Shown here: positions 710-64,000 of the stretch, in pieces
Numbering within the stretch: position 1 is the first letter of the stretch
Layout: each line of letters starts with the position of its first letter
Assembly: GCF_019139535.1 (NCBI RefSeq)
Contig: NZ_CP077073.1
Coordinates: forward strand, 4,182,501-4,246,500
Source of the DNA: Pseudomonas muyukensis
Lineage (GTDB): Bacteria > Pseudomonadota > Gammaproteobacteria > Pseudomonadales > Pseudomonadaceae
Reading direction: 5' to 3'
DNA length: 64,000 nt
Translations under genes and position numbers: made by a program
Notes under the pieces: generated by a model
What the model saw: only the letters and a program-made list of their open reading frames with translations
Databases searched by the model: none
What the model was told of the DNA's origin: nothing

Positions 710-723
710 GAAGCACTCCCTGA

Positions 724-1002
724 TCAACGGCCTGCGCGGGACTCACGGATGTAGAAACGCGCCTTCTCGGCCTTGTGGGTACACCCTTCGAAGCCTTCGA
801 ACTGCTGCTGGGTCTTGGCCCCGGTCAACAGCGACAGCGCCTTGGAATAGCTCACGGTGCCGGCAAAGCCTTCGGCCTTGGCCAGGTCCAGTTCCTTCCA
901 GGCGGCATCGAGCTGGGTCGCGCAGCTGTCGCGGTAGGCCGTCTTGCCTGCGCAACCGGCCAGGGCCAGCACCAGCAATGGAAGGGTGATCCAGACTTTC
1001 AT
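724..1002 (-). CDS. small lipoprotein
   Basis: A 92-residue protein with a lipoprotein signal: a short basic start (MKVW), a hydrophobic stretch and the lipobox LALAGC, with Cys17 as the expected lipidated residue. The mature part is polar and has two further cysteines (DSCATQ and FEGCTHKAE), which could form a disulfide in the periplasm. Its length and composition resemble small conserved Pseudomonas envelope lipoproteins of unknown function. A GAGG ribosome site precedes the ATG. It lies just upstream of the CHAD gene in the same direction, and the divergent phospholipase gene starts about 157 bases away. No enzymatic motif is visible. Confidence 0.7.
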   Translation of the reverse strand: MKVWITLPLLVLALAGCAGKTAYRDSCATQLDAAWKELDLAKAEGFAGTVSYSKALSLLTGAKTQQQFEGFEGCTHKAEKARFYIRESRAGR

Positions 1003-1159
1003 CGGTAATACCTCGAGGGAGAGAAACTAAGGTCGCCGTTCGACGGCAAAGCAAACGAAAAGTGCCCTGCTCAGCGTAGTCCAGCGCGGACTACATTGAA
1101 GCACAGGCACCAACAGGTGCATTGTTGGACCATGGTTGCACTGGCAAGGGGAATGGCTC

Positions 1160-2200: not shown

Positions 2201-2222
2201 GCAAAGGCCGACAAACCAGCCC

Positions 2223-2625
2223 GTAGGCGCCAGCCTTGCTGGCGAACCAGGCAACGCGGTGGAGGGCACCGGCTATACCGGTGTTCGCCGGCAAGCCGGC
2301 TCCTACAGGTTTGCGGCGTACCCGCCTCGTAGGAGCCAGCTTGCTGGCGAACCAGGCGCCGCGGTGGATGGCACCGGCCATGCCGGTGTTCGCCGGCAAG
2401 GCCGGCTCCTACACGTTTGCGGCGTACCCCGCCCGTAGGAGCCAGCCTTGCTGGCGAACCAGGCGCCGCGGTGGATGGCACCGGCAAGGCCGGTGTTCGC
2501 CGGCAAGGCCGGCTCCTACAGGTTTGCGGCGTACCCCGCCTCGCAGGAGCCAGCTTGCTGGCGAACCAGGCGCCGCGGTGGCTGGCACCGGCCATGCCGG
2601 TGTTCGCCGGCACGCCGGCTCCTAC
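2223..2625 (+). repeat. tandem array of four REP-type palindromic units
   Basis: Four imperfect copies of an approximately 84-bp palindromic unit begin at about 2223, 2329, 2435 and 2543, with a period of 106-108 bp. Each begins GTAGGAGCCAGC(C)TTGCTGG and ends GCCGGCTCCTAC, so the ends are inverted repeats. The middle contains a second palindrome, CACCGGC...GCCGGTG. The spacers are also similar to one another (AGGTTTGCGGCGTACCC). The array fills the convergent gap between the phospholipase gene and ppiD and has no coding signal of its own. These are putida-group REP/BIME-like elements; the same unit recurs near 34.0, 37.9 and 48.8 kb. Confidence 0.85.
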
Positions 2626-2637
2626 GGGATCTTCAGG

Positions 2638-2672
2638 AAAAACGAAACAGGCCGCATAAGCGGCCTGTTTCG
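2638..2672 (-). terminator. Rho-independent terminator of ppiD
   Basis: A perfect 13-bp stem (CGAAACAGGCCGC at 2643-2655, its complement at 2660-2672) with a 4-base loop. On the minus strand it is followed by five T residues (2638-2642 read in reverse). It begins 15 bases beyond the ppiD stop codon. Confidence 0.85.
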
Positions 2673-2687
2673 TCATCGCGACAGCAC

Positions 2688-4547: not shown

Positions 4548-4616
4548 GCGTCCCCCAGAAACGGTTGTACCACTGCGTCGACAACCGCGGAGCGTGGGTA
4601 GAGTCCTGATAGAAGA

Positions 4617-4641
4617 AAGGCGCATCCAGTGGATGCGCCTT
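4617..4641 (-). terminator. probable hupB terminator
   Basis: A perfect 11-bp stem (AAGGCGCATCC at 4617-4627 and its complement at 4631-4641) with a 3-base loop, followed on the minus strand by TCTTCT. It lies between the hupB stop and the ppiD start. The T-tract is interrupted, so some read-through into ppiD is likely. Confidence 0.6.
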
Positions 4642-4726
4642 CTCGAAGCGAGCGTGCCAGCGGGAACGTTTGCGACCCGCCGTCACGCGGTCGGCCCAGG
4701 CGTGCCCGGGCCGGCTGAAAGACGAC

Positions 4727-4999
4727 TTAGTTGACGGCGTCTTTCAGGCCCTTGCCAGCCTTGAAGCCTGGAACCTTGGCGGCAGCGATCTTGATCGCCT
4801 TGCCGGTTTGCGGGTTGCGGCCGGTGCGCTCGGCGCGCTCCTTGACCGAGAAAGTACCGAAGCCGACCAGGACGACGTCGTCGCCTGCTTTCAGGGCACC
4901 GGTCACGGAGTCGATCACAGCGTCCAGAGCTTTGCCAGCGGCAGCCTTGGAAATGTCAGCCGATGCAGCGATAGCGTCAATCAGTTCCGACTTGTTCAC
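4727..4999 (-). CDS. hupB: DNA-binding protein HU-beta
   Basis: A 90-residue nucleoid protein that bends and wraps DNA non-specifically as a dimer. The sequence is a standard [22 protein letters not shown] at the start, the core [21 protein letters not shown] with the DNA-contacting beta-arm and its proline (RNPQTGK), and a C-terminal helix ending [12 protein letters not shown]. The length is exactly that of the family. It lies between lon and ppiD on the same strand, the usual proteobacterial order. About 150 AT-richer bases separate it from lon and presumably hold its own promoter. Confidence 0.97.
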
Positions 5000-5152
5000 T
5001 CTAAGTCCCCTTATATCACTATTGAGTTTGTTTCTAAGTATGTATTGAAAAGCTTATGAAACGTGCGCTGGGTGGCCTGTTGACACTGGCGTGCCGCTTT
5101 ATAGCAAGGGGCCGAAAATGCTGTCAACCGAAGCCCCCCAGCGAAATACGTA

Positions 5153-7549
5153 CTAATGCGTGCTGATTCTTTCCTTAGCATCGCCGTCGCGCTTCTCATC
5201 TTTCGCGACAATCTCCGGAGCCACATCTGGCAAGGGCTCCGGGGCGTATTGCAGCGCAATTTGGAGGACTTCGTCAATCCATTTGACCGGTTTGATCTGC
5301 AGATCCTGCTTGATATTTTCCGGAATCTCCTTGAGATCGCGAACATTCTCTTCCGGAATGATCACGGTCTTGATTCCACCGCGGTGTGCCGCCAGCAGTT
5401 TTTCCTTGAGCCCACCGATGGCCAGGACCTGGCCACGCAAGGTGATCTCGCCGGTCATTGCGACATCGGCGCGTACCGGAATCTGGGTCAGCGCCGAGAC
5501 CAGCGCGGTGCACATGCCGATACCGGCGCTCGGGCCATCCTTGGGCGTGGCGCCTTCGGGCATATGGATATGAACGTCGTGCTTCTCGTGGAAATCTGCA
5601 GCGATCCCCAGGCTACGCGCGCGACTGCGCACAACGGTTTGCGCGGCCGTGATCGACTCGACCATGACGTCGCCGAGCGAGCCGGTCTTGATCAACTGAC
5701 CCTTGCCAGGGATGACCACAGCCTCGATGGTCAGCAATTCGCCGCCCACCTGGGTCCAGGCCAGGCCCGTGACCTGGCCGATCTGGTCCTGCTGCTCGGC
5801 CAGGCCATAGCGGAACTTACGCACGCCCAGCAGGTGCTCGAGCTGCTCGCCGCTGACCTTGACCTTCACCTGCTTGTGCCCGGTGTGCTCCTTGACCACC
5901 TTGCGGCAGACCTTGGCGATCTGCCGCTCCAGGCCACGCACGCCGGCTTCGCGGGTGTAGTAGCGGATGATGTCGCGGATGGCCGAGACATCGACCTCCA
6001 GCTCGTCCTTCTTCAGACCGTTGGCCTTGACCTGCTTGGGCACCAGGTACTTGACCGCGATGTTGATCTTCTCGTCCTCGGTGTAGCCCGGCAGGCGGAT
6101 GACTTCCATCCGGTCCAGCAACGCCGGCGGGATGTTCATCGAGTTCGAGGTGCACAGGAACATCACGTCCGAGAGGTCGTAATCGACTTCCAGGTAATGG
6201 TCGTTGAAGTTGTGGTTCTGCTCGGGGTCGAGCACCTCCAACAACGCCGAGGCCGGATCGCCGCGCATGTCGCTGCCCATCTTGTCGATTTCGTCGAGCA
6301 AGAACAGCGGATTGCGTACACCAACCTTGGTCATCTTCTGGATCAGGCGCCCTGGCATCGAGCCGATGTAGGTACGGCGGTGGCCGCGGATCTCGGCCTC
6401 GTCACGCACGCCACCGAGGGCCATGCGCACGAACTTGCGGTTGGTGGCCGCTGCAATCGACTCGGCCAGCGAGGTCTTGCCCACGCCAGGCGGGCCGACC
6501 AGGCACAGCACCGGGCCACGAATCTTCTTCACCCGCTTCTGCACGGCGAGGTACTCAAGGATGCGCTCCTTGACCTCTTCCAGGCCGTAGTGGTCCGCGT
6601 CGAGGATTTCCTCGGCCTTGGCCAGGTCCAGGCGCACCTTGCTCTGGGCCTTCCACGGCACCTGCACCAGCCAGTCCAGGTAGGAGCGCACCACGGTGGC
6701 CTCGGCCGACATCGGCGACATCTGCTTGAGCTTGTTCAGCTCGGCCTGGGCCTTGGCCAGGGCATCCTTCGGCAGGCCGGCGGCATCGATGCGCTTTTTC
6801 AGCTCCTCGATTTCGTTGTGGCCTTCGTCGCCATCGCCGAGTTCTTTCTGAATGGCCTTCATCTGCTCGTTCAGGTAGTACTCGCGCTGGCTGCGCTCCA
6901 TTTGTTTCTTGACCCGGCCACGGATGCGCTTCTCCACCTGCAGCAGGTCGATTTCGGCATCCAGCAACGCCAGCACGTGTTCGACACGCGCGGCCAGGTC
7001 GACGATCTCGAGGATCTCCTGCTTCTGCTCGATCTTCAGCGCCATGTGCGCAGCCATGGTGTCGACCAGGCGGCCGGGCTCCTCGATGCTGTTGAGCGAG
7101 GAGAGCACCTCGGCCGGGACTTTCTTGCCCAGCTGCACGTACTGCTCGAACTGCGACAGCAAGGTGCGCACGAACACCTCGGACTCGCGCTCGGCGGTCT
7201 CGGTTTCGTCGATCAGGCTGACTTCGGCCCGGATATGGCCGTCGACTTCGTTGAAGCGCTCGACCGCGCCGCGCTGCTCGCCCTCGACCAGCACCTTGAC
7301 GGTGCCATCGGGCAGCTTGAGCAGTTGCAGAACGGTGGCGACGGTGCCCACGCGATACAGGGCGTCTTCACCTGGATCGTCATCGGCGGGATTCTTCTGG
7401 GCCAGCAGGAGGATCTGCTTTTCGCCCGTCATCGCGGCCTCAAGGGCCTCGATGGACTTCTCACGCCCCACGAACAGCGGGATGACCATATGCGGATAGA
7501 CGACAACGTCACGCAATGGCAGAAGAGGCAAGTCGAGGGTGGTCTTCAT
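5153..7549 (-). CDS. lon: ATP-dependent protease La (Lon)
   Basis: A 798-residue cytoplasmic AAA+ serine protease that degrades misfolded and regulatory proteins. The N-terminal substrate-recognition domain begins [24 protein letters not shown] coiled linker precedes the ATPase domain, which has the Walker A motif GPPGVGKT at about residues 352-359, Walker B ([11 protein letters not shown]) and the sensor region. The C-terminal protease domain carries the Ser-Lys dyad: Ser674 in PKDGPSAG and Lys717 in the [16 protein letters not shown] region. The length and motif spacing match E. coli Lon. It follows clpX on the same strand, and a candidate heat-shock promoter lies about 60 bases upstream. 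Many pseudomonads have a second Lon elsewhere; this one is in the canonical clpX-lon-hupB context. Confidence 0.97.
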
Positions 7550-52356: not shown

Positions 52357-52908
52357 TCAACGCACATCTCGCGCAATCAAGAGCGCGCGCGCTATCATGT
52401 CTTGGGTGATATACGGAACAAACCCTGATCTGTCACCCTGCTCGAAGCTGAACTGATAGTGTGCAAGACAGCTAACGTCTCCAGCTATCGCCAACGCTGC
52501 CAAGTGCCGCAACGGCATAGCGCCCTTCGAATTTGTTGGCAAAGCTCTATAAGCTGCCAAGCCTTTTTCTATATCTTGAGCAGACGCCCAAGATATAGCA
52601 CTTCGAGAAAGTCTAACGACATCATCCAGCGAGAAATCGACTATTTTCTCCGGCACGTCATTACTTACAATGATCGGTACATAATCACGGGCCTCACCCA
52701 AAACGAATGCAGCTGCCGCCGTAAAACTCCTTGTAGAAACAGATGGCATTAATGAAACCCTAAAATGATCAGAGCGCTTCCCTATAGCCGGAATAATCTG
52801 AACCTGGACATCGCCAACGTCCATTAGGCAAAAACAATCCCCAACCTCATCTTTGCCGCGTCTCCAGCCAAGCCCCTCTAGAGCTGGCAACATCTCTATT
52901 TCTTTCAC
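52357..52908 (-). CDS. putative CDI immunity protein, displaced module 1
   Basis: A 183-residue cytoplasmic protein without recognised domain. It starts at GTG 52908; the G of that codon is the last base of the TAG stop of a toxin remnant (TAGTG), the overlap expected of a toxin-immunity pair. The sequence has a beta-rich first half (DVGDVQVQIIPAIGKRSDHF, ARDYVPIIVSNDVPEK) and a helical second half with repeats of Ala (MPLRHLAALAIAGDVSCLAH). Its base composition is AT-richer than the flanking genes. Only the last 20 or so codons of its partner toxin remain. Complete and apparently intact, so it could still protect against an incoming toxin of the same type. Confidence 0.65.
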   Translation of the reverse strand: MKEIEMLPALEGLGWRRGKDEVGDCFCLMDVGDVQVQIIPAIGKRSDHFRVSLMPSVSTRSFTAAAAFVLGEARDYVPIIVSNDVPEKIVDFSLDDVVRLSRSAISWASAQDIEKGLAAYRALPTNSKGAMPLRHLAALAIAGDVSCLAHYQFSFEQGDRSGFVPYITQDMIARALLIARDVR

Positions 52909-52967
52909 TACTTAGCACCTGGAAAATTCATGATCTCAACCGGAATTCCATTGGGATAGCCTTGCGA
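52908..52967 (-). pseudogene. 3' remnant of a CdiA-CT toxin gene (module 1)
   Basis: On the minus strand a frame reads S-QGYPNGIPVEIMNFPGAK-stop and overlaps the start codon of the putative immunity gene by one base. Upstream of about 52967 the sequence switches abruptly to the inverted-repeat element (GAAAAGGGGAC ends). The rest of the toxin is missing. The combination of an open frame, an overlap with an immunity gene and a sharp junction argues for a truncated toxin rather than chance; the tail alone is too short to name the toxin family. Confidence 0.6.
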
Positions 52968-52984
52968 AAAGGGGACCGCGAAAA

Positions 52985-53091
52985 GGGGACAGATTTATTT
53001 TCCCTACTCTAATTTCGACCTACCCTGCCTGACAGCTATATCGCGACGCCTCAGGAACCGAATTTAAAGTAGAGAAAATAAATCCATCCCC
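52985..53091. mobile_element. MITE-like inverted-repeat element, copy A
   Basis: A 107-bp element. The left end GGGGACAGATTTATTTTCCC and the right end (GGGGATGGATTTATTTTCTC in inverse) flank a core TCGACCTACCCTGCCTGACAGC. An extra partial end (GGGGACCGCGAAAAGGGGAC) precedes it at 52971. The stretch 53092-53168 holds further partial ends plus a small coding-like remnant. Confidence 0.8.
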
Positions 53092-53116
53092 TTTCACCGT
53101 GTCCCCTTTTACCCAC

Positions 53117-53170
53117 CTTTCACCCGTGTCCCCTTTCACCCGATCCACAAACCGATTGTTACCCGTCAGG
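53117..53170 (-). pseudogene. tiny coding remnant resembling the end of a REP-associated transposase
   Basis: On the minus strand the segment reads LTGNNRFVDRVKGDTGE before running into element ends. The G-N-x-R-F pattern recalls the C-terminal region of TnpA-REP (RAYT, Y1-type) transposases, the enzymes that mobilise REP-like inverted elements. The fragment is too short to be sure; it is trapped between copies A and B. Confidence 0.25.
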
Positions 53171-53303
53171 AAAAATAAATCCGCCCCCTTTTCGGTCCCC
53201 TTTTCGTGATTTTCCCTACTCTAATTTCGACCTACCCTGCCTGACAGCTAGATCGCGACGCCCCAGGAACCGAATTTAGAGTAGGGAAAATAAATCTGTC
53301 CCC
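53169..53303. mobile_element. MITE-like element, copy B with an extra partial right end
   Basis: A lone right end (GGAAAAATAAATCCGCCCC, 53169-53187) is followed by a copy lacking its outer left terminus: ATTTTCCCTACTCTAATTTC from 53209, the common core, and a full right end AAAATAAATCTGTCCCC finishing at 53303. The arrangement suggests one copy inserted into or recombined with another. Confidence 0.75.
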
Positions 53304-53328
53304 TTTTTCGCTGTCCCCTTTTTCGCTA

Positions 53329-53403
53329 ACCATTGCAGCCTGATCTTGCTGGCGCATCGCTTCAATACTTTGATATCGGTTGAGCAGCCAGCTCTCCAAG
53401 GAG
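53329..53403 (-). pseudogene. trapped coding remnant of unknown origin
   Basis: Between copies B and C, 75 bases on the minus strand keep an open frame reading LESWLLNRYQSIEAM and RQQDQAAMVS. The amino acid pattern looks like real protein sequence. It has no start or stop of its own and is bounded on both sides by element ends. Family not recognised. Confidence 0.35.
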
Positions 53404-53409
53404 CGAAAA

Positions 53410-53516
53410 GGGGACAGATTTATTTTCCCTGCTCTAATTTCGACCTACCCTGCCTGACAGCTAGATAGCTACGCCCCAGGAACCAAATTTAGAGTAGAAA
53501 AAATAAATCTGTCCCC
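53410..53516. mobile_element. MITE-like element, copy C
   Basis: A 107-bp copy with both ends intact: GGGGACAGATTTATTTTCCC on the left and AAATAAATCTGTCCCC on the right. A few core changes (AGATAGCTACG for AGATCGCGACG) separate it from copy B. It lies about 55 bp beyond the stop codon of the module 2 immunity gene. Confidence 0.85.
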
Positions 53517-53571
53517 TTTCCCTCCCCTTTCCCCCTGTCCCCTTGCTCCTCTTTTTAGTCGCCTTTATCGA

Positions 53572-54084
53572 TCATCTCTCCTCGACTCTCCCCCCCTCTA
53601 ATGGGTGCAACCTCAAGAACTCAATATAAAACTCATGAAGCTTATAAAAGTTCGCATCAGGATCACTTTTTAATTCTTGATAGCGGGCCAAAAGACTTTC
53701 AAATAACCCTTCCGGAACAGCATGCTCATCTACGTCACGCCTTGCATAACAGAAATACTCAAACGCTTCTTTTAGCATTTCAACGGAAAGGCTTTTGCTA
53801 TATCTCAGCAGAAACAAGAATGCATATCCCCACTCATCCTGGGACATCAGCAAATAATATAGACAAGCTGCTCGCAAGGAGTCACTGAATGGCACATCGG
53901 ACTCCAGAATAAGCTTGCAATATTCAAGTCCTTTTCTTACGTCAGCCACATAAAGCCCACTTAGATACTCTAAGGCATCTTGTGCAGGATCCTCAAAGGA
54001 GAGTTCATTAATGTATCCATTCGCCAGATAATTATCTAGCCCACGAAGAAACTCATGAACAGAATGCCTCATTAAATTTATCAC
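53572..54084 (-). CDS. putative CDI immunity protein, module 2
   Basis: A 170-residue helical protein (start GTG 54084, then [17 protein letters not shown]). The GTG overlaps the TGA stop of the orphan toxin (GTGA), so translation is coupled; a GGGAG lies 8 bases upstream. An in-frame ATG four codons in is an alternative start. The sequence is rich in aromatic and acidic residues ([40 protein letters not shown]), as is common for immunity proteins. No named family is recognised. It is AT-rich compared with the chromosome around it and likely neutralises the CT encoded at 54081-55718. Confidence 0.75.
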
Positions 54085-55718
54085 TTAAAGGCTCCCACCT
54101 GCATAGTTGACAACCGCTTTGACCCATCATCCAAAATCGTCCAAGTTGCATTCACCCGCACATTCCCTTGAGGACCAGAAAGCACAATAGAGGACCGCCT
54201 ATTTGCCACTGTAATATCGCGAGCAGAAGCCAGCAGCTCGGCTATGATCATTTTATTATTCTTAGCCGTATCAATAATCCCCGCACTATCAAGAACCCGC
54301 GCCATATCTCGCGACCTTTCAACATTATGCATTTGACTAGAAAGCAGTCTCAATCTAGCTTCATTTTCGGGATTCTTTGCAAACTCCTTCTGACTTGCAG
54401 CTCGCAAGGATCTCAGAGATTCATATTCAGTCTGCAACGCGCCCAGATCACCGGAAGACTTACCCCGCATGTACAGCTCAACCTTATCAAGCGGCACCCT
54501 TGCATCACCTTTCACTGCCGTCGCATGAAGTCTCCCATTTGCATCTGGCAACCACTTAAGACCAATATCAAATGCGAATCGTTTATTTGCACTAGCCGCA
54601 AGAGATCCCGCTTTACTAGCCACTTTAGTAACAATTTTCTCGGTAACGTTAACCGAGACCTTGGCCGCTCCTACCCCGCCCCCAAGTAAAGCGGCAATTT
54701 CCGACAACAGCTTGCCGCCTTCAACCCCTGCCTTGAACGACCCGCCGGCCCCTGCTCTCTCGTACTCGGCCTCCATTTGATCGATACGTTCAATATACGA
54801 CTGTTTCACCGCATCAGCGATGTTCCCAAGCACATCATCACTCTGGAACAGTGACTTCAAGGCATCGAACGTTTCACCCGGGCTGCTGGCCGTCTGCACG
54901 ATCCCTTTGACGGTGTCATACAACCCCTCCGGCACGCCGGCGATCATACCAGCGGCAAAGCTGCCATCCTGTCCTACGTCGATCGCTAGCCACTTCGCCT
55001 CTTTCTGGGCCGTGCAGGCAGTGTTGTCGCAGGATGCCAATTCTGCGGCCTTCTGCGCTTTCTGCTCCTTGCTCAGATAGTTGTTTTCTACAGCATTGCG
55101 ACCGGCCCCAGCACCGGTGACGGCACCCGCGCTATTGCCCTCTACAAGGCCTCCCGAAAGGCCGGCCGCCAACGTCGACAATGCCGAAATCGTCTGCTTC
55201 TGCTCCTCACTCAACGCACTGGTATCACTGGTACCATACAGTTGCTGAGCAATAAGGCGTGCGGATAGCTCGCCGCCAGCAGCCCCGGCCGCACCCGCTG
55301 CCGCCGAGTTGCCTTGCGCCTGGGCCACCACGGCCCCAAGCACAGCGTGGGCCATGACATTCAGCGCCGCGTTGTCTCCAGTGGACTTCTTGATCAACTG
55401 CGCCAGGTACGGCGCCGAGGCGCCAGCCAGTGCCGAGCCGATATTCCCGCCGGCCAGCCCCTGCAGAGCCGCCGTCACCGCCTGGGTAACGCGCTGGTAA
55501 TCACCGCTGGTACCGTGCTTGCCCATAATCTTCTGGTAAGCCTCGGTCGCAACCAGCTTATTCTGATAGTCCTCGACAGCTTTCGGGTCAGCGCCTTGCC
55601 CAGGCTCGTGAGTACCCTGCTTCGCAAGCTCAGCCTTTGCCTCCTCCTTGGCCTTGCGCAGCCCCTCGGTCCGCACGATGTCCGACACCTGGGTCCCGAT
55701 CTCACCGATCAGTTGCAC
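54081..55718 (-). CDS. orphan CdiA-CT toxin module, 5'-truncated
   Basis: A 545-residue C-terminal piece of a CdiA-like protein. Homology to the main CdiA begins at 55759 (in frame with [19 protein letters not shown]), so the true 5' end is a truncation, and the nominal GTG start at 55718 is arbitrary. Residues 1-210 match the pretoxin part of the main protein ([36 protein letters not shown]), ending in a VENN motif at 55080-55091 (AVENNYLS). Beyond it the sequence is unrelated to the main toxin: [14 protein letters not shown], a Gly/Ala-rich helical region and a C-terminal domain ending [20 protein letters not shown]. The toxin activity is unknown. It overlaps the immunity gene at 53572-54084. 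Orphan modules like this are silent until recombined onto the main gene. Confidence 0.8.
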
Positions 55719-55775
55719 CTGCTGCAGGCGCCGTTGCTCTTTCTCCTTGTCAAAGATCGCGAAAAGGCGCGAAAA

Positions 55776-55882
55776 GGGGACAGATTTATTTTCCCTACTC
55801 TAATTTCGACCTATCCTGCCTGATAGCTATATCGCGACGCCCCAGGAACCGAATTTAGAGTAGGGAAAATAAATCTGTCCCC
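55776..55882. mobile_element. MITE-like element, copy D
   Basis: A 107-bp copy with both ends intact (GGGGACAGATTTATTTTCCC and its inverse). It lies 17 bases from the point (55759) where the orphan CdiA module loses homology to the main gene, and its other end truncates the module 3 immunity gene. A partial tandem end (CGCGAAAAGGCGCGAAAAGG) precedes it. Confidence 0.85.
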
Positions 55883-56142
55883 TTTTTCTGCACATCCCTC
55901 TCGATCCAAACCATTACTGAACAAAGTGATGGATCACTGGCAAATCCAAGAATAGCCCCTGAGTCGAACTCAACACTCGCAGGCCCTGCTGTCAACGTAA
56001 ATATTTCATTCTTAGAAACTCCGTGCTCGACAGCCTCTTCAGGCGCCCACCAACTATACCGCTTAACCGATATCAGCTTGCAACCTATAAGCTGTTTCAG
56101 CTCATTCAAAAAATCTGCTGGAATTACAGAATAGCCACTCAT
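55855..56142 (-). pseudogene. truncated immunity gene, module 3
   Basis: The frame starts at ATG 56142 (MSGYSVIPADFLNELKQLIG) with a ribosome site and runs for about 85 native residues (to VMVWIERDVQ). It then enters copy D of the inverted element, which supplies the last residues [10 protein letters not shown] and the stop. The ATG overlaps the TGA of a toxin remnant (ATGA). The native part has a beta-rich, acidic character (EIFTLTAGPASVEFDSGAIL) resembling small immunity proteins. The C-terminus is lost, so it is probably non-functional. Confidence 0.65.
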
Positions 56143-56189
56143 TTCCCTACCGCCTTTTGCGCCTGCCCAATCAACAAATCAATCGGAAA
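56139..56189 (-). pseudogene. 3' remnant of a CdiA-CT toxin gene (module 3)
   Basis: A minus-strand frame reads F-PIDLLIGQAQKAVGK-stop, with the TGA overlapping the ATG of the truncated immunity gene. Upstream of 56189 the sequence is replaced by tandem element ends (GGAAAAGGGGACACCGGAAAAG). Only about 16 codons remain. Confidence 0.55.
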
Positions 56190-56218
56190 AGGGGACACCG
56201 GAAAAGGGGACCGGAAAA

Positions 56219-56297
56219 GGGGACAGATTTATTTTTCCTACTCTAATTTCGACCTACCCTGCCTGACAGCTAGATTAGGAAAAATAAATCTGTCCCC
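56219..56297. mobile_element. MITE-like element, copy E (internally deleted)
   Basis: A 79-bp copy with both ends (GGGGACAGATTTATTTTTCC and AAAATAAATCTGTCCCC) but lacking about 30 bp of the core. It is preceded by two extra tandem ends at 56185-56218 (GGAAAAGGGGACACC and GGAAAAGGGGACC). It lies 7 bases from the CdiA fragment at 56305. Confidence 0.8.
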
Positions 56298-56304
56298 TTT
56301 CCCC

Positions 56305-56705
56305 GTAGTTGTCGGTGTCCTGCAGGCTCTGCAGCGTCAGGTCGCGTCCAACGTCGGCGACGACCTTGTCGGCGTTGGCCTGGGCGCCTTTGAGCGTGGT
56401 ATCCCACCCGCTGAGCAAGCTGGCCTGGTTCCCGGCATCCAGGGTCGTTTCCGTCCAGGTGGTGCCATTGCCCTTCTCGTTGCCCGAGCCTTTGTTGGCA
56501 TTGGCAAAGATGCTCAGGCCCGCGCCACTCGAACCGACACCGATACTGGCGCCGATGGCACCGCCGCTGCTGCTGTTCTTGCCGTCCAGTTTCTACGTAT
56601 TGGCCGCGGCTTCCAGCAGGATGTCGCGCTTGGCTTCGAGCGACAGGTCGTTGCCCGCCTTGAGCTGGCTGCCCTGCACACGGATATCGCCGCCCGTGGC
56701 ATCAC
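56305..56705 (-). pseudogene. internal cdiA fragment with a nonsense codon
   Basis: This 401-bp stretch matches the main cdiA at 60062-60462 without gaps and with only five differences that I can count by eye. It encodes part of the haemagglutinin-repeat region (around EAAANTQKLDGKNSSSGGAI). One change turns CAG (Gln) into TAG at 56593-56595. The fragment has no start and is bounded by copies E and F of the inverted element. It is a recent, non-functional copy. Confidence 0.85.
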
Positions 56706-56715
56706 AGTGGGAAAA

Positions 56716-56822
56716 GGGACAGATTTAGTTTCTCTACTCTAATTTTCGGCCTACCCTGCCTGACAGCTAGATCGCTACGCTCCAGGAACCTAAGTTAGAG
56801 TAAGGGAAATAAATTTGTCTCC
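56716..56822. mobile_element. MITE-like element, copy F (diverged)
   Basis: A 107-bp copy with mutated ends (GGGACAGATTTAGTTTCTCT on the left, AAATAAATTTGTCTCC on the right) and several core changes. It is the most decayed copy and hence probably the oldest. It separates the cdiA fragment from the immunity gene at 56893. Confidence 0.8.
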
Positions 56823-56892
56823 TTTTTACTCTCTTCCCGTCCACTTTTCCCGTCTTTTTTCTGCCACCCAAACAGAAAAATATAATTATAAA

Positions 56893-57384
56893 TTATATTT
56901 TCAACAAGTCGCCCGAGGTTGCAAGACTTCTCTCTCCAGACAACTGCATAAGCAAACAATTTAGAAACCCACGCAAGTCATACGAAAGCGAACACACAGA
57001 CTCCTCATTTGAGTCATAATGAAAAACCTGATCCCCCAACCCACTCTGTACAAAATAATACTGGCTATCAGAAATAAACGAAAAAACAAAAGGGCGATTC
57101 AAATATTTCTTACCACCACACTCTCTCAAGTCAGCCAAAAACACCTCTTGAAACAGAAGATGCTCCCTAACACGCCATGCGGGGCGATACAATTGAATAA
57201 TAGAGTCACCCAACCAACCTCCATCACTGCGCCCCATTACCGACAAAAAATCACTTAACTGCCCCGTCACACTTATATCATATAGTCGCGCAATAGCTGA
57301 CATTTCAGTCTCGCTATACCCTACACATCCCCTCACATCACCCGACACTCCTGAAAAGACCCGCTCAACGAAACTGCTCAACAT
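56893..57384 (-). CDS. second SUKH (SMI1/KNR4-like) immunity protein
   Basis: A 163-residue protein paralogous to the product of the next gene upstream. Shared pattern: GYSETEMSAIARLYDISVTG, then LSDFLSVMGRSDGG, W-G-x-x-I and HLLFQEVF. These fit the SUKH fold seen in yeast Smi1 and in bacterial immunity proteins for nuclease and deaminase toxins. AGGAGG lies 3 bases before the ATG. It starts 26 bases after the first immunity gene and is probably translated from the same mRNA. It may be a relic from an earlier toxin or a second layer of protection. It is AT-rich. Confidence 0.75.
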   Translation of the reverse strand: MLSSFVERVFSGVSGDVRGCVGYSETEMSAIARLYDISVTGQLSDFLSVMGRSDGGWLGDSIIQLYRPAWRVREHLLFQEVFLADLRECGGKKYLNRPFVFSFISDSQYYFVQSGLGDQVFHYDSNEESVCSLSYDLRGFLNCLLMQLSGERSLATSGDLLKI

Positions 57385-57410: not shown

Positions 57411-57896
57411 CTAAATTTCGAGCAACCCACTTTTCTTTGAAACCCCACTTCCACGAGGCGCAACACTTATCTTCAAAAATGCCTTGAGATCATACCCAGT
57501 TTCTGCAACCGACTGCCCACAACCATCAAAGCTATACACAGCATCCCCCTCCTTAGTCCTTAAGTAATAGTATTCGCCCGACGGCAAATAGCAAATCACG
57601 AATGGCTTTCCCAAAAACTTATGAAGCCCTGCATCTTGCATTTTATCGCAGAACTCAGTTTGAAATAGCACATGCTGACGAACCCCCCACCCAGCATTAT
57701 AAATTGCTATCGCATCAGACTTAAACAAACCTCCATCTGAAAGCCCCAACACAGAAAGAAAACCCTTTAACTGACCTTCAACATTAATATTATATAGCCT
57801 TGAAATTGCAGCCAAGTCTTCATCACTGTATCCCAGGCAATCTTCCTGCCTTACGGATGTCCCCACTAACATATCTTGCAGTAGATCCTTACTCAT
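57411..57896 (-). CDS. cdiI: CdiI-type SUKH immunity protein for the main CdiA toxin
   Basis: A 161-residue protein. The ATG (57894-57896) overlaps the cdiA stop codon (ATGA), the standard toxin-immunity coupling. The sequence has the SUKH-like pattern GYSDEDLAAISRLYNINVEG, LKGFLSVLGLSDGGLF and VLFQTEF, a mixed alpha/beta core, and a C-terminal helix before the basic tail GSGVSKKSGLLEI. SUKH proteins are commonly paired with nuclease and deaminase toxins, which agrees with the HAE/CxxC motifs of the adjacent toxin. Roughly a third of its residues are shared with the paralogue downstream. The specific partner is inferred from position. Confidence 0.8.
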   Translation of the reverse strand: MSKDLLQDMLVGTSVRQEDCLGYSDEDLAAISRLYNINVEGQLKGFLSVLGLSDGGLFKSDAIAIYNAGWGVRQHVLFQTEFCDKMQDAGLHKFLGKPFVICYLPSGEYYYLRTKEGDAVYSFDGCGQSVAETGYDLKAFLKISVAPRGSGVSKKSGLLEI

Positions 57897-58880
57897 GGAT
57901 TCACCCCCGTAGTCCCCTGAAAGAATCGCACATCAAACTTCGGGTTCTTCTCAGCAAATATTGCGCTACTAATCGCACAACCTGAACACATACCCGGCTT
58001 TGCAGCCGAAGTATTCTCAACCCCAATAGATACGACTGCTTTTTTTCCAGCATATACATCTTGGAAGTAACTCATCAATTTCTGCTCAGCATGATTGAAG
58101 TTTGTACTACCGTTACTCCCATTCACCACACTGGGCAACGCCCGACTATCCGCTGTAATGATTTGATACTGCACTCCTCCAATTTCCACTTTTGTAGGCG
58201 AGTTTTGCTTCCAGTTTTTTCCACTAACCGATAGCACATACTGAACATTTCCGTCAACACTGATAGAGCCTGCTGCTACAGATAGGCCTTGAGTATTGCC
58301 TTTTTTCACGTAATCACTGAGGGCGTCTCGGAGCAGGGCAGGATTTATAGCCGTATCCGGGATTTTGTTGAGCTCCTTGACTGACAGGTTTTTAGGCAGC
58401 CCGTCTACCCGACCACCTTTGCTTGCGCCAGCAACCCCCGCCAATGCAGTAACAACTGCATGAAGCTTCATAACAGTATCGTACTGGCTTGCTACCTCAT
58501 CAAAGCTTTTATTACTCTCCTTGGCGATCGCTGAAATAGCCGCATCCCGAGTAACCCCACCAGCATCAAGCCCTGAAAGTATACGACTAGCGTTTTCTGC
58601 ATCTTGGGGATACAGCTCTTTATAGAGCAAGCGATAGCTTACCTCTTCACCGTAGGACTTTAATGCCTCCTGGGCTTTAGCCACCAAAGTCAAGCAGCCA
58701 GCAGAGCTCTTATTACCCTGGGTGCATGCATCAAGAACAGCCTGATCACGTTCACTATCCAGTCGTCTAGTGTCCGCCAATTCCCGACTTTCTTCAGCTG
58801 TAAGCGAACCAGCCTTCTCCCGCCGCTCCAAAACTTTCTTTCGCTCAGCCTCTGCCGCACTTAGATAGTTATTCTGAACA
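57893..58880 (-). other. CdiA-CT toxin module with predicted deaminase-fold domain
   Basis: The last approximately 325 residues of CdiA after VQNN. The first 200 form a helical translocation-like region (LLYKELYPQDAENASRILSG). The last 120 contain FNHAEQKLMSYF (HAE at 58085-58093) and KPGMCSGCAISSAIF (CxxC around 57980-57991), the zinc-ligand pattern of the cytidine-deaminase superfamily, with the expected beta-strand VVSIGV between them. This predicts a base- or nucleotide-modifying toxin, not a nuclease. The motif match is direct; the activity is inferred. Confidence 0.7.
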
Positions 58881-61800
58881 GCGTTTATGCTTGATTGAAT
58901 TGCAGTAGCAGCGCCATTTGCGTCCCCCCCAGTTACACCACCAGCTAACCCAGCCGCTAATGCAGAAAGCGCGGTGATGTTCTGCTTCTGGTCTTCACTA
59001 AGAGTCGATGTGTCGCGAGTTCCATATAACCGCTCGCTAAGCAGTTGCGCAGTCAGCTCTCCTCCGACTGCCCCTGCAGCCCCGGCAACTACCGAGTTAC
59101 CCTGAGCCTGTGCCACAACTGCGCCCAGGACGGCATGAGCCATGACTCGAATGCTGTCATTTTCACCGGCAACCTGCTTGATCACACCTGCCAGATAGGG
59201 AGCTGAGGCTCCAGCCAAAGCACCGCTGATATTTCCCCCAGCCAAACCTTGCAGCGCTGAGGTTACAGCTTGAGCGACCTTCTGATAGTCGCCACCGGTA
59301 CCGTACTTGCCCATGACCTTCTGGTAAGCATCGGTAGCGACCAGTTTTTTCTGGTACTCCTCGATTTCCTTTGTGCTGGCCCCATCCTTAGGCTCACTGA
59401 TACCACGCTCCCTGAGCTCAGCCTTCGCCTCATCCTTGGCCTTGCGCAGCCCCTCGGTCCGCACGATGTCCGACACCTGGGTCCCGATCTCACCGATCAG
59501 TTGCACCTGCTGCAGGCGCCGTTGCTCTTTCTCCTTGTCAAAGATCGGGCTGATGCTGTCATTGGCATGCTCGACGTCATGGCTCAGGGTCGCGACGTCT
59601 TGCTTCTGCTGGCCAGGATCACGGATCTCCAGGGTGCCCTCGGAAATCGCCGATGACGTGGTACCGCTGGCGCTGCCGCTGTGGTTGTAGGCAATCAGCG
59701 TGCCGCTGGGCATGTTGCTGGTGAAGCCCGTCGAGCCGCTGTTGCCACCGCTGACGCTGGCGCTGGCCATCTGGCTCTTGAACTCGGCCTTGTTCTCGAT
59801 ATCGCTCCAACCCAGGGTGCCGGTGCTCAGGCGGTTCTTGTCGGCCTCGGCAGTGCTGGCGATGACGCTGCCGTCCAACTGAGTGTGCTTACCGACATCG
59901 ACCTGGTAGCCACCCTTGCCGGCGAACAACCCGGTCTGCTCCTGCACGCTCTGGTACTTGGAGTCGAGCTTGTTCTGGCTGACGCTGAGACTACCGCTTG
60001 CCCCACCCGCACCGATGATGGTGACGCTTACCCCGCCGCTGACATTGGTCTGCTTGGACTTGTAGTTGTCGGTGTCCTGCAGGCTCTGCAGCGTCAGGTC
60101 GCGTCCAACGTCGGCGACGACCTTGTCGGCGTTGACCTGGGCGCCTTTGAGCGTGGTATCCCGCCCGCTGAGCAAGCTGGCCTGGTTCCCGGCATCCAGG
60201 GTCGTTTCCGTCCAGGTGGTGCCGTTGCCCTTCTCGTTGCCCGAGCCTTTGTTGGCATTGGCAAAGATGCTCAGGCCCGCGCCACTCGAACCGACACCGA
60301 TACTGGCGCCGATGGCACCGCCGCTGCTGCTGTTCTTGCCGTCCAGTTTCTGCGTATTGGCCGCGGCTTCCAGCAGGATGTCGCGCTTGGCTTCAAGCGA
60401 CAGGTCGTTGCCCGCCTTGAGCTGGCTGCCCTGCACACGGATATCGCCGCCCGTGGCATCACTGCCATTACCCTTGGCGACGATGGTCAGGTCGTTGCCG
60501 CTGGTCAGGCTGCTGCCCTGGCTGACGGTCTGCTCCTGGGTCTGGCGCGAGCTGGACTTCTGCCCGCCGAGCGAGATGGCGATGCCGACGAACTGGCCGG
60601 CGTTCTCCGACGTCATGCCGCCATTTTCCTGCGCGGCCTGCCAGGCCTGCACACCGGTCAGGCCGGCCTTGATGCCTTGCAGGGCCGAGAGTCGGCTGTC
60701 CTCCTCCTTGGTGGCCTGCTTGGCTATCTGGTAGGCGGTATCGACAGCACTGCCTACCGTGCCGGACAAGGCCAGGGTCAGGCCGCTGCTCTTGCTCTTG
60801 GCGGTCTGCTCGCTGCTGTTGTGGTGCTCGGCCGCGACGATCTCGACGTTCTGCCCGACCAGGGTGATGTCCTTGCCGGCGATCAGCTCGGAGCCCTTCA
60901 CCCCCAGGTCCTTGCCGGCCTCGATGGACACGTTGCCGAGCACGCTGCCGACGGTGCTGGCCTTGCCGTTCTCGGTCTTGCTGGTGGCGGTGTTCTCCAG
61001 GCTGGTCGAGCCGAGGGTGAAGCCGATCCCGCCGCTGCTGAGCAAGCCGGACTTCTTCTTCGAGCTCGAGTGGCTTTGCTCGAAGGTTTGCGTGGCACTC
61101 TCGATCTGGATGTTGCCCCCGGCCAGCAGGCTCGTGTCGTTGGTGGACACGATGTTGCTGCCCGATACGCCAATATCCTGCCCGGCGTGGATCGCTACCG
61201 TGTCGCCGCTGACCGACGAACCTTCCTGGGTGACGGCATGCGTGCTGTCGATACGGGTCTTCTGGCTGCTGGAGAGTCCGGAGCGGCTGGTCTTGGTCTT
61301 GCGGTAGTAGCTGTAGTCGCTGTTCTCCTCGGCGACCAGGTTCACGTCACCACCGGCATAGAGATAAGCCTCATTGCCCGCCGTCACCTTGCTGGCACTC
61401 AGGCTCAGGTCGTCCCCGGCCTTGAGCGCCACGTTACCGCCGGCCGCCACAGTGCTGGACACTTGCTGGACGTGATCTTCCTGGCTGGTGACCTTCCTGG
61501 TCTTGCTCGCCGAATGCTGCTCATTGGCGGCGGACACCAGGCTCAGGTCGCCGGTCGCGGTCATTGCCACATCGCGCTTGGCCTCGATCGCGCTGGCCAC
61601 CGCATTGATGTCGCGTCCGGCGCTGACGGTCAGGTCGCGCCCGGCCTGCAGGCTGGAGCCGTTCTGGGTCACGCTGTAGTCGCTGTGGCGCACGCCCTGG
61701 TCATTGCTGACCACCTGCTGCACCGAGGTCAGCTTGACGTCGCGCCCGGCCTTGAGGTTGGTGTCGGCGCCACTGGTGAGCACGCCGCCGCTGTTGAGCA

Positions 61801-64000
61801 GATCACGCCCGGCGTTGATCGCCAGGTTGTTGGCCGCCTCGACCCTGGCCGCGCTGTCGACGAAGTCGCGCTGCTGGGCGTAGCTGCCGTTGCTGCTCTG
61901 GTGCGAGGTCGCGCTGCGCTCGTTGGTCACGTCGCGGGTGGCGGTGAGGGTCACGTCACGCCCGGCGATGATGCCGCCGGCCTTGTTCGACAGGTTGTTG
62001 CCCGCCAGCAGGTCGAGACGGTCGCCGGCCTCCACCAGGCCGCTGTTGACCAGGTTGTTGCCGGCCTGGGCCGACAGGTTGTGGGTCGCGCGCAGGGTAC
62101 CGACGTTGTCGAGGTTCTGCCCGGCGATCAGGTTGACGTCGCTGCCGGCAATCAACGCGCCGTTGGGCGCCAGGCGGTCATTGGAGTGGGCCAGGTAGAG
62201 CACCGGCACCAACACCTGCTCGCCATTGACCTCGGCGTTTTCCAGCCACACGATGTCGTGGGTCAGGGCCGCCACCTGCTCGGCGGTCAGGCTCACGCCC
62301 ACCGCCAGGTTGAGCTGCTGCTTGCTCTGGATGGCGTTGTCCATCAGGTACTTGAACAGCTTCTCGTCGGTGTCCTGGCCGTCGATGAAGCGCTGGCCGG
62401 TACGGGCGACCACGGCCTGCTGCACCAGTTTCTGCTCGTAGAAACCGTCACCCAGGCGCTTGGCGCTCAGGTCGGGGTCGTAGCCGAGGTTCGCCAGCAG
62501 GTAGTCCGAACTCATGAACTGCTTGAGGTCGGTGAGTACCGGGTTGGTTTCGATCAGGTACTTGTGCGGGTTGCTGCGCACGCTGCTGTCGGGCAGGCCC
62601 TGCACACGGTCGATGGTGATCGGCGCCGGGCCCTGGGCGTTCAGCGCGGCGGCCTGGGTGATACCGTCGTTCACCTGCGTACGCCCCGGCAGCAGCGGGC
62701 CGCTGCCTGCGCCCGGCAAGGCGGTGTCGATGGCGCTGGCATCGCCGACAACGGTGGCCTGGCCACGGCTGGCGGTACTTAGCTCGGTGCTGCGGCCGGC
62801 CGCCTGGGTGACGTCACCCAGGTTGATGTCGCGCGCCAGCACCTGCGGCAGCGGCTGCTGGCGCTGCACGGCGCTCAGGCTGGCGCCGCCCAGGGTCCAG
62901 CTTTGCGGGCCGCTGTTGGCCGGCGTGCTGCCGGCGTCGGTGCTCAGGCGGAACAAGCCGTGCTGGCCGCTGGGCAGGCTGAAGCCCGGCAGCGCCAGCG
63001 GGTTGACCTGCTGCTGGGCCAGGTCTGGCGGCAACTGCTGGTTGAGGTTGATCCGAGTGGAGAACGCGGTGCCCGGCGCCGAGGTGTCGGTACGCGCGCC
63101 ACTGCCGATGTAGTCGTAGCCCGGGCGCACCACGCTGTTGCTGATGCCGTTGCCGGCGCTGATGCTCACCGCGCCGCCGGCCTGCATCACCCCGGCATAG
63201 CTCTGGTCGCCGCCGGCGAGCTTGCGGCTGCTGCCCAGCGATACCAGCTCCGCTTCGGTCATGCCGATGAAGCCGGCCAGGGCGCCTTGCAGGCCGCCCA
63301 GGTCGTTGGGGTTGTAGCCGGCGCTCTCGTACCAGTACTTGCTGGTGACCGAGTTGGCGACGCTGTACCAGCCGCCGGCGTTCTTGGTGCGCGCCGAGCG
63401 GAAGATACGGGTGGTCTCGGTCTCGCCGGTCTCCACGCCGCTGTTGGTGAGGTTGTTCACCGACGCCACCAGGCTGCCGGCGGCAGCGATGGTGCTGCTG
63501 CTGTTGAGCAGGTCGCCGCCGCGGATCGTGAGGTTGGCGCCCGTGGTGATGCTCGACGCGGCGCTGGCCTCGGTGACATCGAACTTGTCGCGCTGGACGA
63601 TTTCCCAGACGTGGTTGCGCTTGCCACCGCAGTCGCCGGCGTTGTAGCCCTCGATACAGGCGACTTCGCCGATGCGCGCGGTGTACACGCCCTTGTTGTC
63701 GGTCTTGAGTACCGCGCGCACGTTCTGCACGGTGCTGGCGGCCAGGCTCATCGAGCCATCGCTCTGCAGCGAGCCGGAGCTGTTGACGATGCTGCTGGCC
63801 AGGGTGCCCTGGCCGTCGCGGTCGATGGTCAGGTTGCCCAGGCTGTAGACGTCGGCATAGCTGTTGGTCAGGCTGTCGACACGCAGGCCAATGTCGGCGC
63901 CGCTGAACAGCAGGCCATGGTCGTTGACCAGGGCGCCGGTGGTCAGGGTCAGGTTCTGCGCGGCGCCCAGGGTGCCCTGGTTGTTGACGGCACCTGCCGC
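57893..64000 (-). CDS. cdiA: CdiA/FhaB-type contact-dependent inhibition protein, N-terminus beyond the window
   Basis: At least 2035 codons, open to the right window edge, so the signal sequence and TPS secretion domain are not seen. The visible part has filamentous haemagglutinin repeats (AGRDVTLTATRDV, AGNNLVNSGLVEAGDRLDL) over about 59.7-64.0 kb. A pretoxin region follows ([40 protein letters not shown]), then a degenerate VENN motif VQNN at 58868-58879. After it the DNA becomes AT-rich and the toxin begins. The protein should be exported by a CdiB-type partner, presumably encoded beyond the window, and deliver its C-terminus into neighbouring bacteria. The stop overlaps the immunity gene. 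Confidence 0.88.
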   Translation of the reverse strand, partial: AAGAVNNQGTLGAAQNLTLTTGALVNDHGLLFSGADIGLRVDSLTNSYADVYSLGNLTIDRDGQGTLASSIVNSSGSLQSDGSMSLAASTVQNVRAVLKTDNKGVYTARIGEVACIEGYNAGDCGGKRNHVWEIVQRDKFDVTEASAASSITTGANLTIRGGDLLNSSSTIAAAGSLVASVNNLTNSGVETGETETTRIFRSARTKNAGGWYSVANSVTSKYWYESAGYNPNDLGGLQGALAGFIGMTEAELVSLGSSRKLAGGDQSYAGVMQAGGAVSISAGNGISNSVVRPGYDYIGSGARTDTSAPGTAFSTRINLNQQLPPDLAQQQVNPLALPGFSLPSGQHGLFRLSTDAGSTPANSGPQSWTLGGASLSAVQRQQPLPQVLARDINLGDVTQAAGRSTELSTASRGQATVVGDASAIDTALPGAGSGPLLPGRTQVNDGITQAAALNAQGPAPITIDRVQGLPDSSVRSNPHKYLIETNPVLTDLKQFMSSDYLLANLGYDPDLSAKRLGDGFYEQKLVQQAVVARTGQRFIDGQDTDEKLFKYLMDNAIQSKQQLNLAVGVSLTAEQVAALTHDIVWLENAEVNGEQVLVPVLYLAHSNDRLAPNGALIAGSDVNLIAGQNLDNVGTLRATHNLSAQAGNNLVNSGLVEAGDRLDLLAGNNLSNKAGGIIAGRDVTLTATRDVTNERSATSHQSSNGSYAQQRDFVDSAARVEAANNLAINAGRDLLNSGGVLTSGADTNLKAGRDVKLTSVQQVVSNDQGVRHSDYSVTQNGSSLQAGRDLTVSAGRDINAVASAIEAKRDVAMTATGDLSLVSAANEQHSASKTRKVTSQEDHVQQVSSTVAAGGNVALKAGDDLSLSASKVTAGNEAYLYAGGDVNLVAEENSDYSYYRKTKTSRSGLSSSQKTRIDSTHAVTQEGSSVSGDTVAIHAGQDIGVSGSNIVSTNDTSLLAGGNIQIESATQTFEQSHSSSKKKSGLLSSGGIGFTLGSTSLENTATSKTENGKASTVGSVLGNVSIEAGKDLGVKGSELIAGKDITLVGQNVEIVAAEHHNSSEQTAKSKSSGLTLALSGTVGSAVDTAYQIAKQATKEEDSRLSALQGIKAGLTGVQAWQAAQENGGMTSENAGQFVGIAISLGGQKSSSRQTQEQTVSQGSSLTSGNDLTIVAKGNGSDATGGDIRVQGSQLKAGNDLSLEAKRDILLEAAANTQKLDGKNSSSGGAIGASIGVGSSGAGLSIFANANKGSGNEKGNGTTWTETTLDAGNQASLLSGRDTTLKGAQVNADKVVADVGRDLTLQSLQDTDNYKSKQTNVSGGVSVTIIGAGGASGSLSVSQNKLDSKYQSVQEQTGLFAGKGGYQVDVGKHTQLDGSVIASTAEADKNRLSTGTLGWSDIENKAEFKSQMASASVSGGNSGSTGFTSNMPSGTLIAYNHSGSASGTTSSAISEGTLEIRDPGQQKQDVATLSHDVEHANDSISPIFDKEKEQRRLQQVQLIGEIGTQVSDIVRTEGLRKAKDEAKAELRERGISEPKDGASTKEIEEYQKKLVATDAYQKVMGKYGTGGDYQKVAQAVTSALQGLAGGNISGALAGASAPYLAGVIKQVAGENDSIRVMAHAVLGAVVAQAQGNSVVAGAAGAVGGELTAQLLSERLYGTRDTSTLSEDQKQNITALSALAAGLAGGVTGGDANGAATAIQSSINAVQNNYLSAAEAERKKVLERREKAGSLTAEESRELADTRRLDSERDQAVLDACTQGNKSSAGCLTLVAKAQEALKSYGEEVSYRLLYKELYPQDAENASRILSGLDAGGVTRDAAISAIAKESNKSFDEVASQYDTVMKLHAVVTALAGVAGASKGGRVDGLPKNLSVKELNKIPDTAINPALLRDALSDYVKKGNTQGLSVAAGSISVDGNVQYVLSVSGKNWKQNSPTKVEIGGVQYQIITADSRALPSVVNGSNGSTNFNHAEQKLMSYFQDVYAGKKAVVSIGVENTSAAKPGMCSGCAISSAIFAEKNPKFDVRFFQGTTGVNP

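Follow-up and report, generated by a model that had tools for sequence, protein, structure and literature searches.

Behind the cdiA gene of a contact-dependent growth inhibition (CDI) locus in Pseudomonas muyukensis lies an array of displaced toxin-immunity pieces, and between these pieces sit short inverted-repeat elements of a single family. The locus is contained in a stretch of 64,000 nucleotides (assembly GCF_019139535.1, contig NZ_CP077073.1, positions 4,182,501 to 4,246,500), here called the window and numbered from its first letter. The same ends flank a Y1 transposase gene in relatives, the elements keep one polarity towards cdiA, the joints of displaced modules coincide with them, and the order and status of the modules vary between relatives. 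We lean, with somewhat better than even confidence, towards the view that the elements are miniature inverted-repeat transposable elements (MITEs) derived from a TIRYT, a transposon with long terminal inverted repeats (TIRs), and that they act as mobile boundaries of toxin-immunity cassettes, which are probably exchanged by homologous recombination.

Pattern search and profile scan place six copies, A to F, all within 52981-56826, and a fuzzy scan with the 23-nt end (at most 7 mismatches) gave nine matches in the 64-kb window, every one inside the same interval. A sequence-only reading of this DNA had put six copies at the breaks between CDI modules and none elsewhere in the window, and both scans bear this out. 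All copies are assigned to the minus strand, which denotes the polarity of the autonomous Y1 element and is parallel to cdiA. Their ends read AAAAGGGGACAGATTTATTTTCC, with an inverted copy at the opposite side, and arms of about 37 nt pair. Elements C (53406..53519) and D (55772..55886, adjoining a second cdiA fragment) are full length, with 107 bp between the outer ends. Element A (52981..53094) has the same span in the profile scan, its right end being partly decayed. Element B (53208..53307) lacks the left arm (first 15 positions) and is followed by a tandem unit of flank plus GTCCCC. A first cdiA fragment has element E (56215..56300), reduced to 79 bp by an internal deletion, at its downstream edge and element F (56712..56826), a decayed copy of 108 bp, at its upstream edge. 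The typical length of 107 bp given earlier thus fits C and D, and A by its span, but not E or F. A weak partial end (12.7 bits in the profile scan, strand not assigned) lies at 53168..53192. Among the four copies folded as single strands, C, D and E reach -31.4, -40.5 and -30.6 kcal/mol (z -8.0, -9.75 and -9.85), and F reaches -17.4 kcal/mol (z -2.2).

Many element ends carry tandem units made of local flank plus GGGGAC, in the window at 52966-52988, 53308-53330 and 56186-56214 (the left side of E) and in many relatives. Their period is mostly 12-17 nt. In 77 cases with a period of 11-17, the copied flank is identical at 281 of 345 positions, against an expected proportion of 0.32, and a unit is present at 119 of 457 ends compared with 8 in a control stretch 300-345 nt off. 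The tandem ends had been taken as a sign of repeated self-insertion, an idea that we abandon, as the units are duplications of local flank with GGGGAC and not nested elements. Mirrored flanks, that is, inverted copies across the element, were considered and rejected: runs of at least 7 occurred in 8 of 132 pairs, compared with a null mean of 2.7 and a null maximum of 8.

In the 5.53-Mb genome, the 17-nt end GGGGACAGATTTATTTT has 17 matches with at most one mismatch, and the reversed pattern has none. The matches form two clusters, 8 in the window and 9 at 4455.0-4458.4 kb, and all 17 fall in orphan arrays behind cdiA-like genes, so that counting copies inside and outside cdi loci comes out in favour of the earlier claim for this genome and, by enrichment, for the genus. 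The second cdi-like locus (L011:11500-20000; C1:4454499-4462999) lies about 0.2 Mb from that of the window; there, the tail of a cdiA-like gene (DUF637, hemagglutinin repeats, PT-HINT) is followed by small open reading frames (ORFs) with elements between them. A transposase matching the elements was not found by a search of the genome, which returned two PF01797 proteins only, both away from the elements and both of REP (repetitive extragenic palindromic) type. One, whose flanks are REP-like by eye, scores 146.7 bits against REP_Tyr_transpos (cut-off 80); the second shares 45% identity with the first and 27% with the relatives' Y1 enzyme. C1:1320913 is the site of a RAYT gene of REP type that has REP-like flanks and no relation to the elements. 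As no matching transposase was found, the copies in P. muyukensis look like relics that could serve as recombination sites only, unless a transposase arrives in trans.

The autonomous partner occurs in relatives. A survey of 149 genomes of the genus detected the exact 18-nt end in 40 and a reversed control in none of the 149. In the 39 genomes besides the window's own, 58 stretches cover the end matches, several of them shorter than 20 kb (contig ends); a match to the Y1 protein is present in 16 of the 58 stretches, some copies being broken or truncated where the contig ends. One genome has two copies of 99% identity (L053 and L054) at two cdi loci with unrelated downstream DNA and unrelated modules of immunity gene and C-terminal toxin region (CT); they define the transposon ends as GGAAAAGGGGACAG...CTGTCCCCTTTT, beyond which the sequences are unrelated. 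Unbroken Y1 proteins have 227-233 residues, and H60, H62 and Y121, which we take to be the catalytic residues of the HUH/Tyr motif, are invariant in all nine aligned. For three of three proteins, Y1_Tnp (PF01797) is the sole Pfam family over cut-off, the score against the NCBIfam model REP_Tyr_transpos (74.5-76.2 bits) stays under the cut-off of 80, and about 110 residues follow the Y1 domain, with no Pfam helix-turn-helix at E up to 1. With the Y1 protein as query, 8000 candidates were scored and 7214 of them qualified as relatives at E 1e-30; among the matches listed, they are mostly from Pseudomonas where named. We took the best 80 of 210 encoding stretches, one genome per species, as protein-found loci, nine of which appear to be stretches already among the 58; at least one end (at most 3 mismatches) is present in 79 of these 80. 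The motif GGGGACAG stands at one or both ends in all 15 listed transposons, a circular count because the transposons were found through that end. Phage carriage was not detected in 50,697 records at E 1e-20, and 7 of 72,556 plasmid records matched at E 1e-30, one of them from Pseudomonas.

We assign the elements to a Y1/RAYT-type transposase because a Y1 gene lies between copies of these ends in relatives. In L155, a strain whose CdiA is 87% identical to that of the window, one transposon arm matches the arm of the window element past the TIR (by eye), which suggests that the copies of the window are derivatives with internal deletions and establishes their polarity. Being short and non-coding, with TIRs that match an autonomous element, they look from their sequence like MITEs of the known TIRYT/TIRtron class. 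They do not look like REPs or REPINs, which are short high-copy hairpins moved by RAYTs, given 17 end matches and long TIRs. Long TIRs also flank the Y1 gene in relatives, where no search for nearby GTAG repeats was made. The ends had been likened to those moved by Y1/REP-type transposases; the Y1/RAYT-type part of this claim stands, but the long TIRs indicate a TIRYT and not a GTAG-tagged REP. Likewise, a Y1 gene with adjacent matching ends is found in relatives but not in P. muyukensis itself.

The family is enriched at toxin loci. CdiA/Rhs matches (tblastn, E <1e-10) are present in 27 of the 58 stretches, one of which (L052) depends on a match of 53 residues where the contig ends, and in none of 19 control stretches (Fisher p 6.8e-5), which were chosen around REP-type Y1 (RAYT) genes of the same genomes and one of which includes one element end, at its edge. 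Both own clusters are also CdiA/Rhs-positive, giving 29/60 versus 0/19 in the wider reference set, and the toxin stretches contain 56 of 97 exact ends. Among the best 80 protein-found loci, 31 have a CdiA/Rhs match above 100 bits, 33 have none within an upstream region of at least 6 kb (one of these, L197, has an 86-bit Rhs match) and 16 are cut. On a quickly built tree, the distribution of the toxin label requires 14 changes, compared with a shuffled mean of 25, and none of 500 shuffles was as low. A Pseudomonas clade of 37 rows (support 84) holds 25 toxin loci, six without a match and six cut; one of the six without a match, L183, has a CdiB-type transporter gene upstream. It is part of the reading we prefer that one transposon lineage in Pseudomonas resides mainly at CDI loci, its ends occurring also at Rhs loci.

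Position and polarity are regular as well. The transposase is parallel to all CdiA/Rhs matches in 30 of 31 toxin loci, the exception (L138) having matches on both strands. The left end of the transposon follows the stop of cdiA at a median distance of 822 bp (29 loci measured; range 382 to 6781, below 1 kb in 17), leaving room for one immunity gene in most cases. All 28 elements of at least 40 bits (six in the window, six in the second own locus, four in G109 and 12 in G102) have one polarity towards cdiA, and this polarity is that of the autonomous form. A P. aeruginosa record contains three transposons and four MITEs, all of which share the strand of its CdiA fragments. These transposons have perfect ends, and over 801 bp the first copy shows 99.25% identity to the second and to the third. 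A glutamine-deamidase gene and a nuclease gene lie among the elements of this array, and the right end of one transposon overlaps the annotated start of this nuclease gene. The record (L256, NZ_CP116719.1) is a linear 24-kb "plasmid" that consists of a CDI orphan array, in which 2.2 kb are duplicated near-identically, and it may be a piece of chromosome.

Elements A to F all lie between displaced CDI pieces, in agreement with the earlier claim that full copies adjoin such pieces, and the joints at F, E and D were checked at base level against the intact cdiA of L155, where the cdiA match stops 4-12 nt from the element. The first cdiA fragment (56305..56705, minus strand), an internal piece between F and E, corresponds to L155:6600-7000, inside intact cdiA, with 93% identity (window 56705-56305). 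The second (54081..55759, minus strand), which starts beside D and comprises PT-VENN and an orphan CdiA-CT, matches L155:7512-8192 in its first part (window 55759-55079, 81%). Between E and D, an ORF without a match in that stretch of L155 replaces about 510 bp of expected cdiA. Since the two sides of the three joints are not contiguous in L155, simple insertion is insufficient, and the earlier proposal that the elements inserted into cassettes does not account for these three joints.

Comparison of relatives reveals that modules have changed places. The second own locus and G109 are 96% identical in cdiA and 90% identical in the flank. Module A adjoins cdiA in the former, whereas in G109 it is an orphan with an element on either side. 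Module G, conversely, adjoins cdiA in G109 and is the orphan farthest from it in the second own locus; module B has orphan status in both loci. The order of the orphans D-E-F-G is reversed in G102, with the orientation of each gene kept. Of 276 pairs of loci, 60 were listed, and 37 of these share the cdiA core (coverage of at least 0.4); the CT-immunity part is without a nucleotide match in 35 of the 37, although the adjacent transposon matches. Differing CTs are to be expected; what matters is that the transposon remains next to the new module. Of 124 shared segments that touch an element, 41 are bounded by elements on both sides in one or both of the loci compared, and 18 of these 41 represent one transposase-gene piece in L099. 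A 1.4-kb segment shared by two Pseudomonas genomes (L050:10043-11479 and L074:10673-9228, 93% identical) is bounded by element ends on both sides in L050 but not in L074.

The remaining genes of the window array are all on the minus strand. The unbroken 3' part of cdiA (57893..64000; hemagglutinin repeats, PT-VENN, DUF6862) runs off the window. Directly behind it follow an ORF of 161 aa (57411..57896), one of 163 aa (56893..57384) and then element F. These two ORFs are paralogue-like by eye, and either may be the cognate immunity gene. The displaced pieces behind them extend over 4.5 kb. An ORF of 95 aa (55855..56142) lies between E and D, its 3' end overlapping D, and one of 170 aa (53572..54084) lies behind the orphan CT, with element C 53 bp further on. 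The ORFs of 161, 95 and 170 aa have no Pfam family, and we infer that all four, like small ORFs in the other arrays, are immunity genes. The array closes with a distal immunity-like ORF of the DUF6990 family (52357..52908; PF22499, E 2.7e-65), a relative of which likewise adjoins elements in L063. An orphan array is characterized by cdiA-CT fragments and immunity genes that follow cdiA and are oriented like it; the window has a CT fragment in that orientation, and the immunity function of its small ORFs is assigned by position. At several orphans the CT remnants are short, and the small ORFs are intact in most modules, which fits selection for immunity without toxin.

How, then, would the elements have come to mark cassettes? 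On the reading we favour, a transposon with a Y1/HUH RAYT-related transposase between long TIRs with the motif GGGGACAG would have settled behind an immunity gene, and the MITEs would have derived from it. As cassettes tend to end in an element, repeats in the same direction would stand behind cassettes. Such elements of about 110 bp, together with the conserved cdiA core, would bracket each toxin-immunity cassette, so that homologous recombination with foreign or neighbouring DNA could gain a cassette, drop one or restore an orphan. New CT-immunity cassettes would enter between the conserved core and an element, and old immunity genes would persist as orphans, mostly closed by an element, with toxin parts cut off at elements. 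We infer that exchange runs through homologous recombination between same-direction elements and the cdiA core; the sequence-only reading had already suggested deletion or exchange by homology at the elements, which we retain as a probable route.

Several observations weigh against this reading. CdiA/Rhs matches are absent from 31 of the 60 stretches, some of them short contigs; about half of the stretches thus lack a toxin match, and the link with cdi loci claimed earlier survives as enrichment, not as the exclusive association, which we reject. A scan of 78 of the 124 nearest ORFs in the non-toxin stretches gave 55 families, among those listed Mrr, Bro-N, NADAR, Imm50, DUF6990 and ordinary metabolic genes. 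A sister Pseudomonas clade of 12 rows (support 85) has 11 loci without a toxin match, one cut and no toxin locus, and several of its members have a neighbourhood in common. Eight weaker pieces (below 40 bits) divide into five that agree in polarity and three opposite ones, the three elements of L071 have near-tied scores and mixed sign, and the arrays of the second own locus, G109 and G102 are not independent because their cdiA genes are related. All seven cdi loci placed relative to dnaA and dif in complete genomes (the own two, G109, G017, G010 and two in G138) run with the replication fork, so that the constant polarity may stem from strand-biased insertion. Some joints bear mere remnants of elements, no junction turned up among near-identical strains, and recombination was not observed. 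The sister lineage has its own surroundings: L154, L168, L172-L174, L179, L181 and L201 lie in non-toxin neighbourhoods with an opposite-strand gene for 708-730 aa upstream. Orientation was also considered as a proof of function and set aside as not discriminating, all seven placed loci following the fork. The sole non-toxin transposon placed, L086, runs against the fork, as does the own hemagglutinin-repeat gene at 5.01 Mb, which is without an element.

Some of these points speak for an explanation in which the transposon and its MITEs are harmless passengers that insert in slack DNA behind immunity genes and are retained in graveyards, without a role in exchange. About half of the stretches are indeed other accessory regions, the decay of elements F and B and the movement of the family on its own fit such a passenger, and a Y1 enzyme acting on one strand at the fork would give constant polarity wherever cdiA follows the fork, as it does in the seven loci. 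The joints would then reflect graveyards that decay and rearrange around any repeat. However, the site shortly behind an unbroken cdiA recurs across many species, none of the 19 RAYT loci of the same genomes is near CdiA/Rhs, three joints link non-contiguous sequence beside elements, and modules relocate between relatives with elements at their edges. We regard a passenger role as unlikely, though more probable than the other alternatives below. A search of relatives for an empty site matched a flank of the window locus in part only, in 14 of 57 genomes including the window's own, and at the non-toxin element L055 the matches listed were one-sided.

Another possibility gives the enzyme the leading part. 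Integron attC arrays have a single oriented hairpin element behind each cassette and form an array of silent cassettes. By analogy, the TIRYT Y1 enzyme and the oriented elements may form an integron-like single-stranded DNA system, in which recombination takes place at the element behind the immunity gene, and the transposase encoded beside the active cassette inserts new cassettes and pushes disarmed ones down the array. Here a Y1 transposase would take the place of the tyrosine recombinase, and integron-style cassette mobility is a proposal that we hold to be quite doubtful. In its mechanistic form, where the transposase moves single-stranded DNA between two elements of the same polarity, as integron-like units that join at element ends, the idea would fit the constant polarity with about one element per cassette, the module order reversed with orientation kept, the precise ends, the transposase near the first cassette and the invariant HUH and Tyr residues. 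Yet neither a circular nor an empty-site intermediate was seen, a search of the own genome found no enzyme of this kind, and homologous recombination accounts for most of the same facts; catalysis by Y1 is improbable in our judgement. Very improbable indeed is a domesticated terminator or insulator, in which the hairpin of A-run, GGGGACAG...CTGTCCCC and T-run stops transcription between modules and is kept for it. The strong predicted hairpins and their location about 20-70 bp past many small ORFs agree with it, but decayed copies persist; a terminator scan reported no element, though its loop limit of 8 excludes long loops and made it blind to them.

Both the element class (TIRYT/TIRtron) and orphan cdi arrays are already known. 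TIRYTs consist of a RAYT-like Y1 gene between long TIRs with the motif GGGGWSAS, and TIR families occur in dimers and clusters (Di Nocera et al., 2013; PMC3733652); they belong to TnpA_REP subclass 2.1, alongside RAYT group 1 (Quentin et al., 2018; PMC6006769). The transposon described here has the Y1 gene, the long TIRs and the GGGGWSAS motif in common with them. It differs in that its lineage recurs at cdi loci, where MITEs punctuate cassettes. The three proteins do extend beyond the Y1 domain, but the C-terminal helix-turn-helix of TIRYTs was not detected in them by Pfam. The accessible text of the former paper contains no mention of a toxin, Rhs or hemagglutinin locus for TIRYTs, and that of the latter a single mention of toxin/antitoxin. 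Displaced modules behind cdiA in the same orientation, as found here, have been described as orphan cdiA-CT/cdiI arrays (Poole et al., 2011, PMC3150448; Ruhe et al., 2016, PMC4927057; Mercy et al., 2016, PMC4725963). Ruhe et al. report intervening transposase and integrase genes in such arrays, Mercy et al. state, with data not shown, that transposable elements flank two P. aeruginosa cdi loci, and Poole et al. call the mechanism of exchange unknown. Unlike the present arrays, those in the accessible parts of these papers come without a specific element family, regular punctuation or polarity. XerC/D recombinases lie near some polyimmunity loci (Zhang et al., 2012; PMC3482391). REPs and REPINs share with our family the Y1 enzyme family and palindromic non-autonomous repeats, but usually number more than 100 copies (PMC2817692), as opposed to 17 end matches and long TIRs here. 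In the type VI secretion system of V. cholerae, sequential displacement of effector genes left diverse arrays of immunity genes (PMC5361080), a similar outcome, but the accessible text names no repeat element. Our literature search, with most subscription papers outside its scope, encountered no link between TIRYTs and toxins and no oriented element family that closes cassettes, so that novelty is unproven.

An element family that, with its transposase, marks cassette ends in many Pseudomonas genomes makes the question of how modules are exchanged and stacked directly testable, and it offers a sequence handle for locating orphan immunity genes. Our data suggest that a statement from 2016, in the accessible text of PMC4725963, restricting orphan modules to P. 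aeruginosa is too narrow. The elements at the module joints are a concrete, testable candidate for how bacteria stack and swap toxin-immunity modules.

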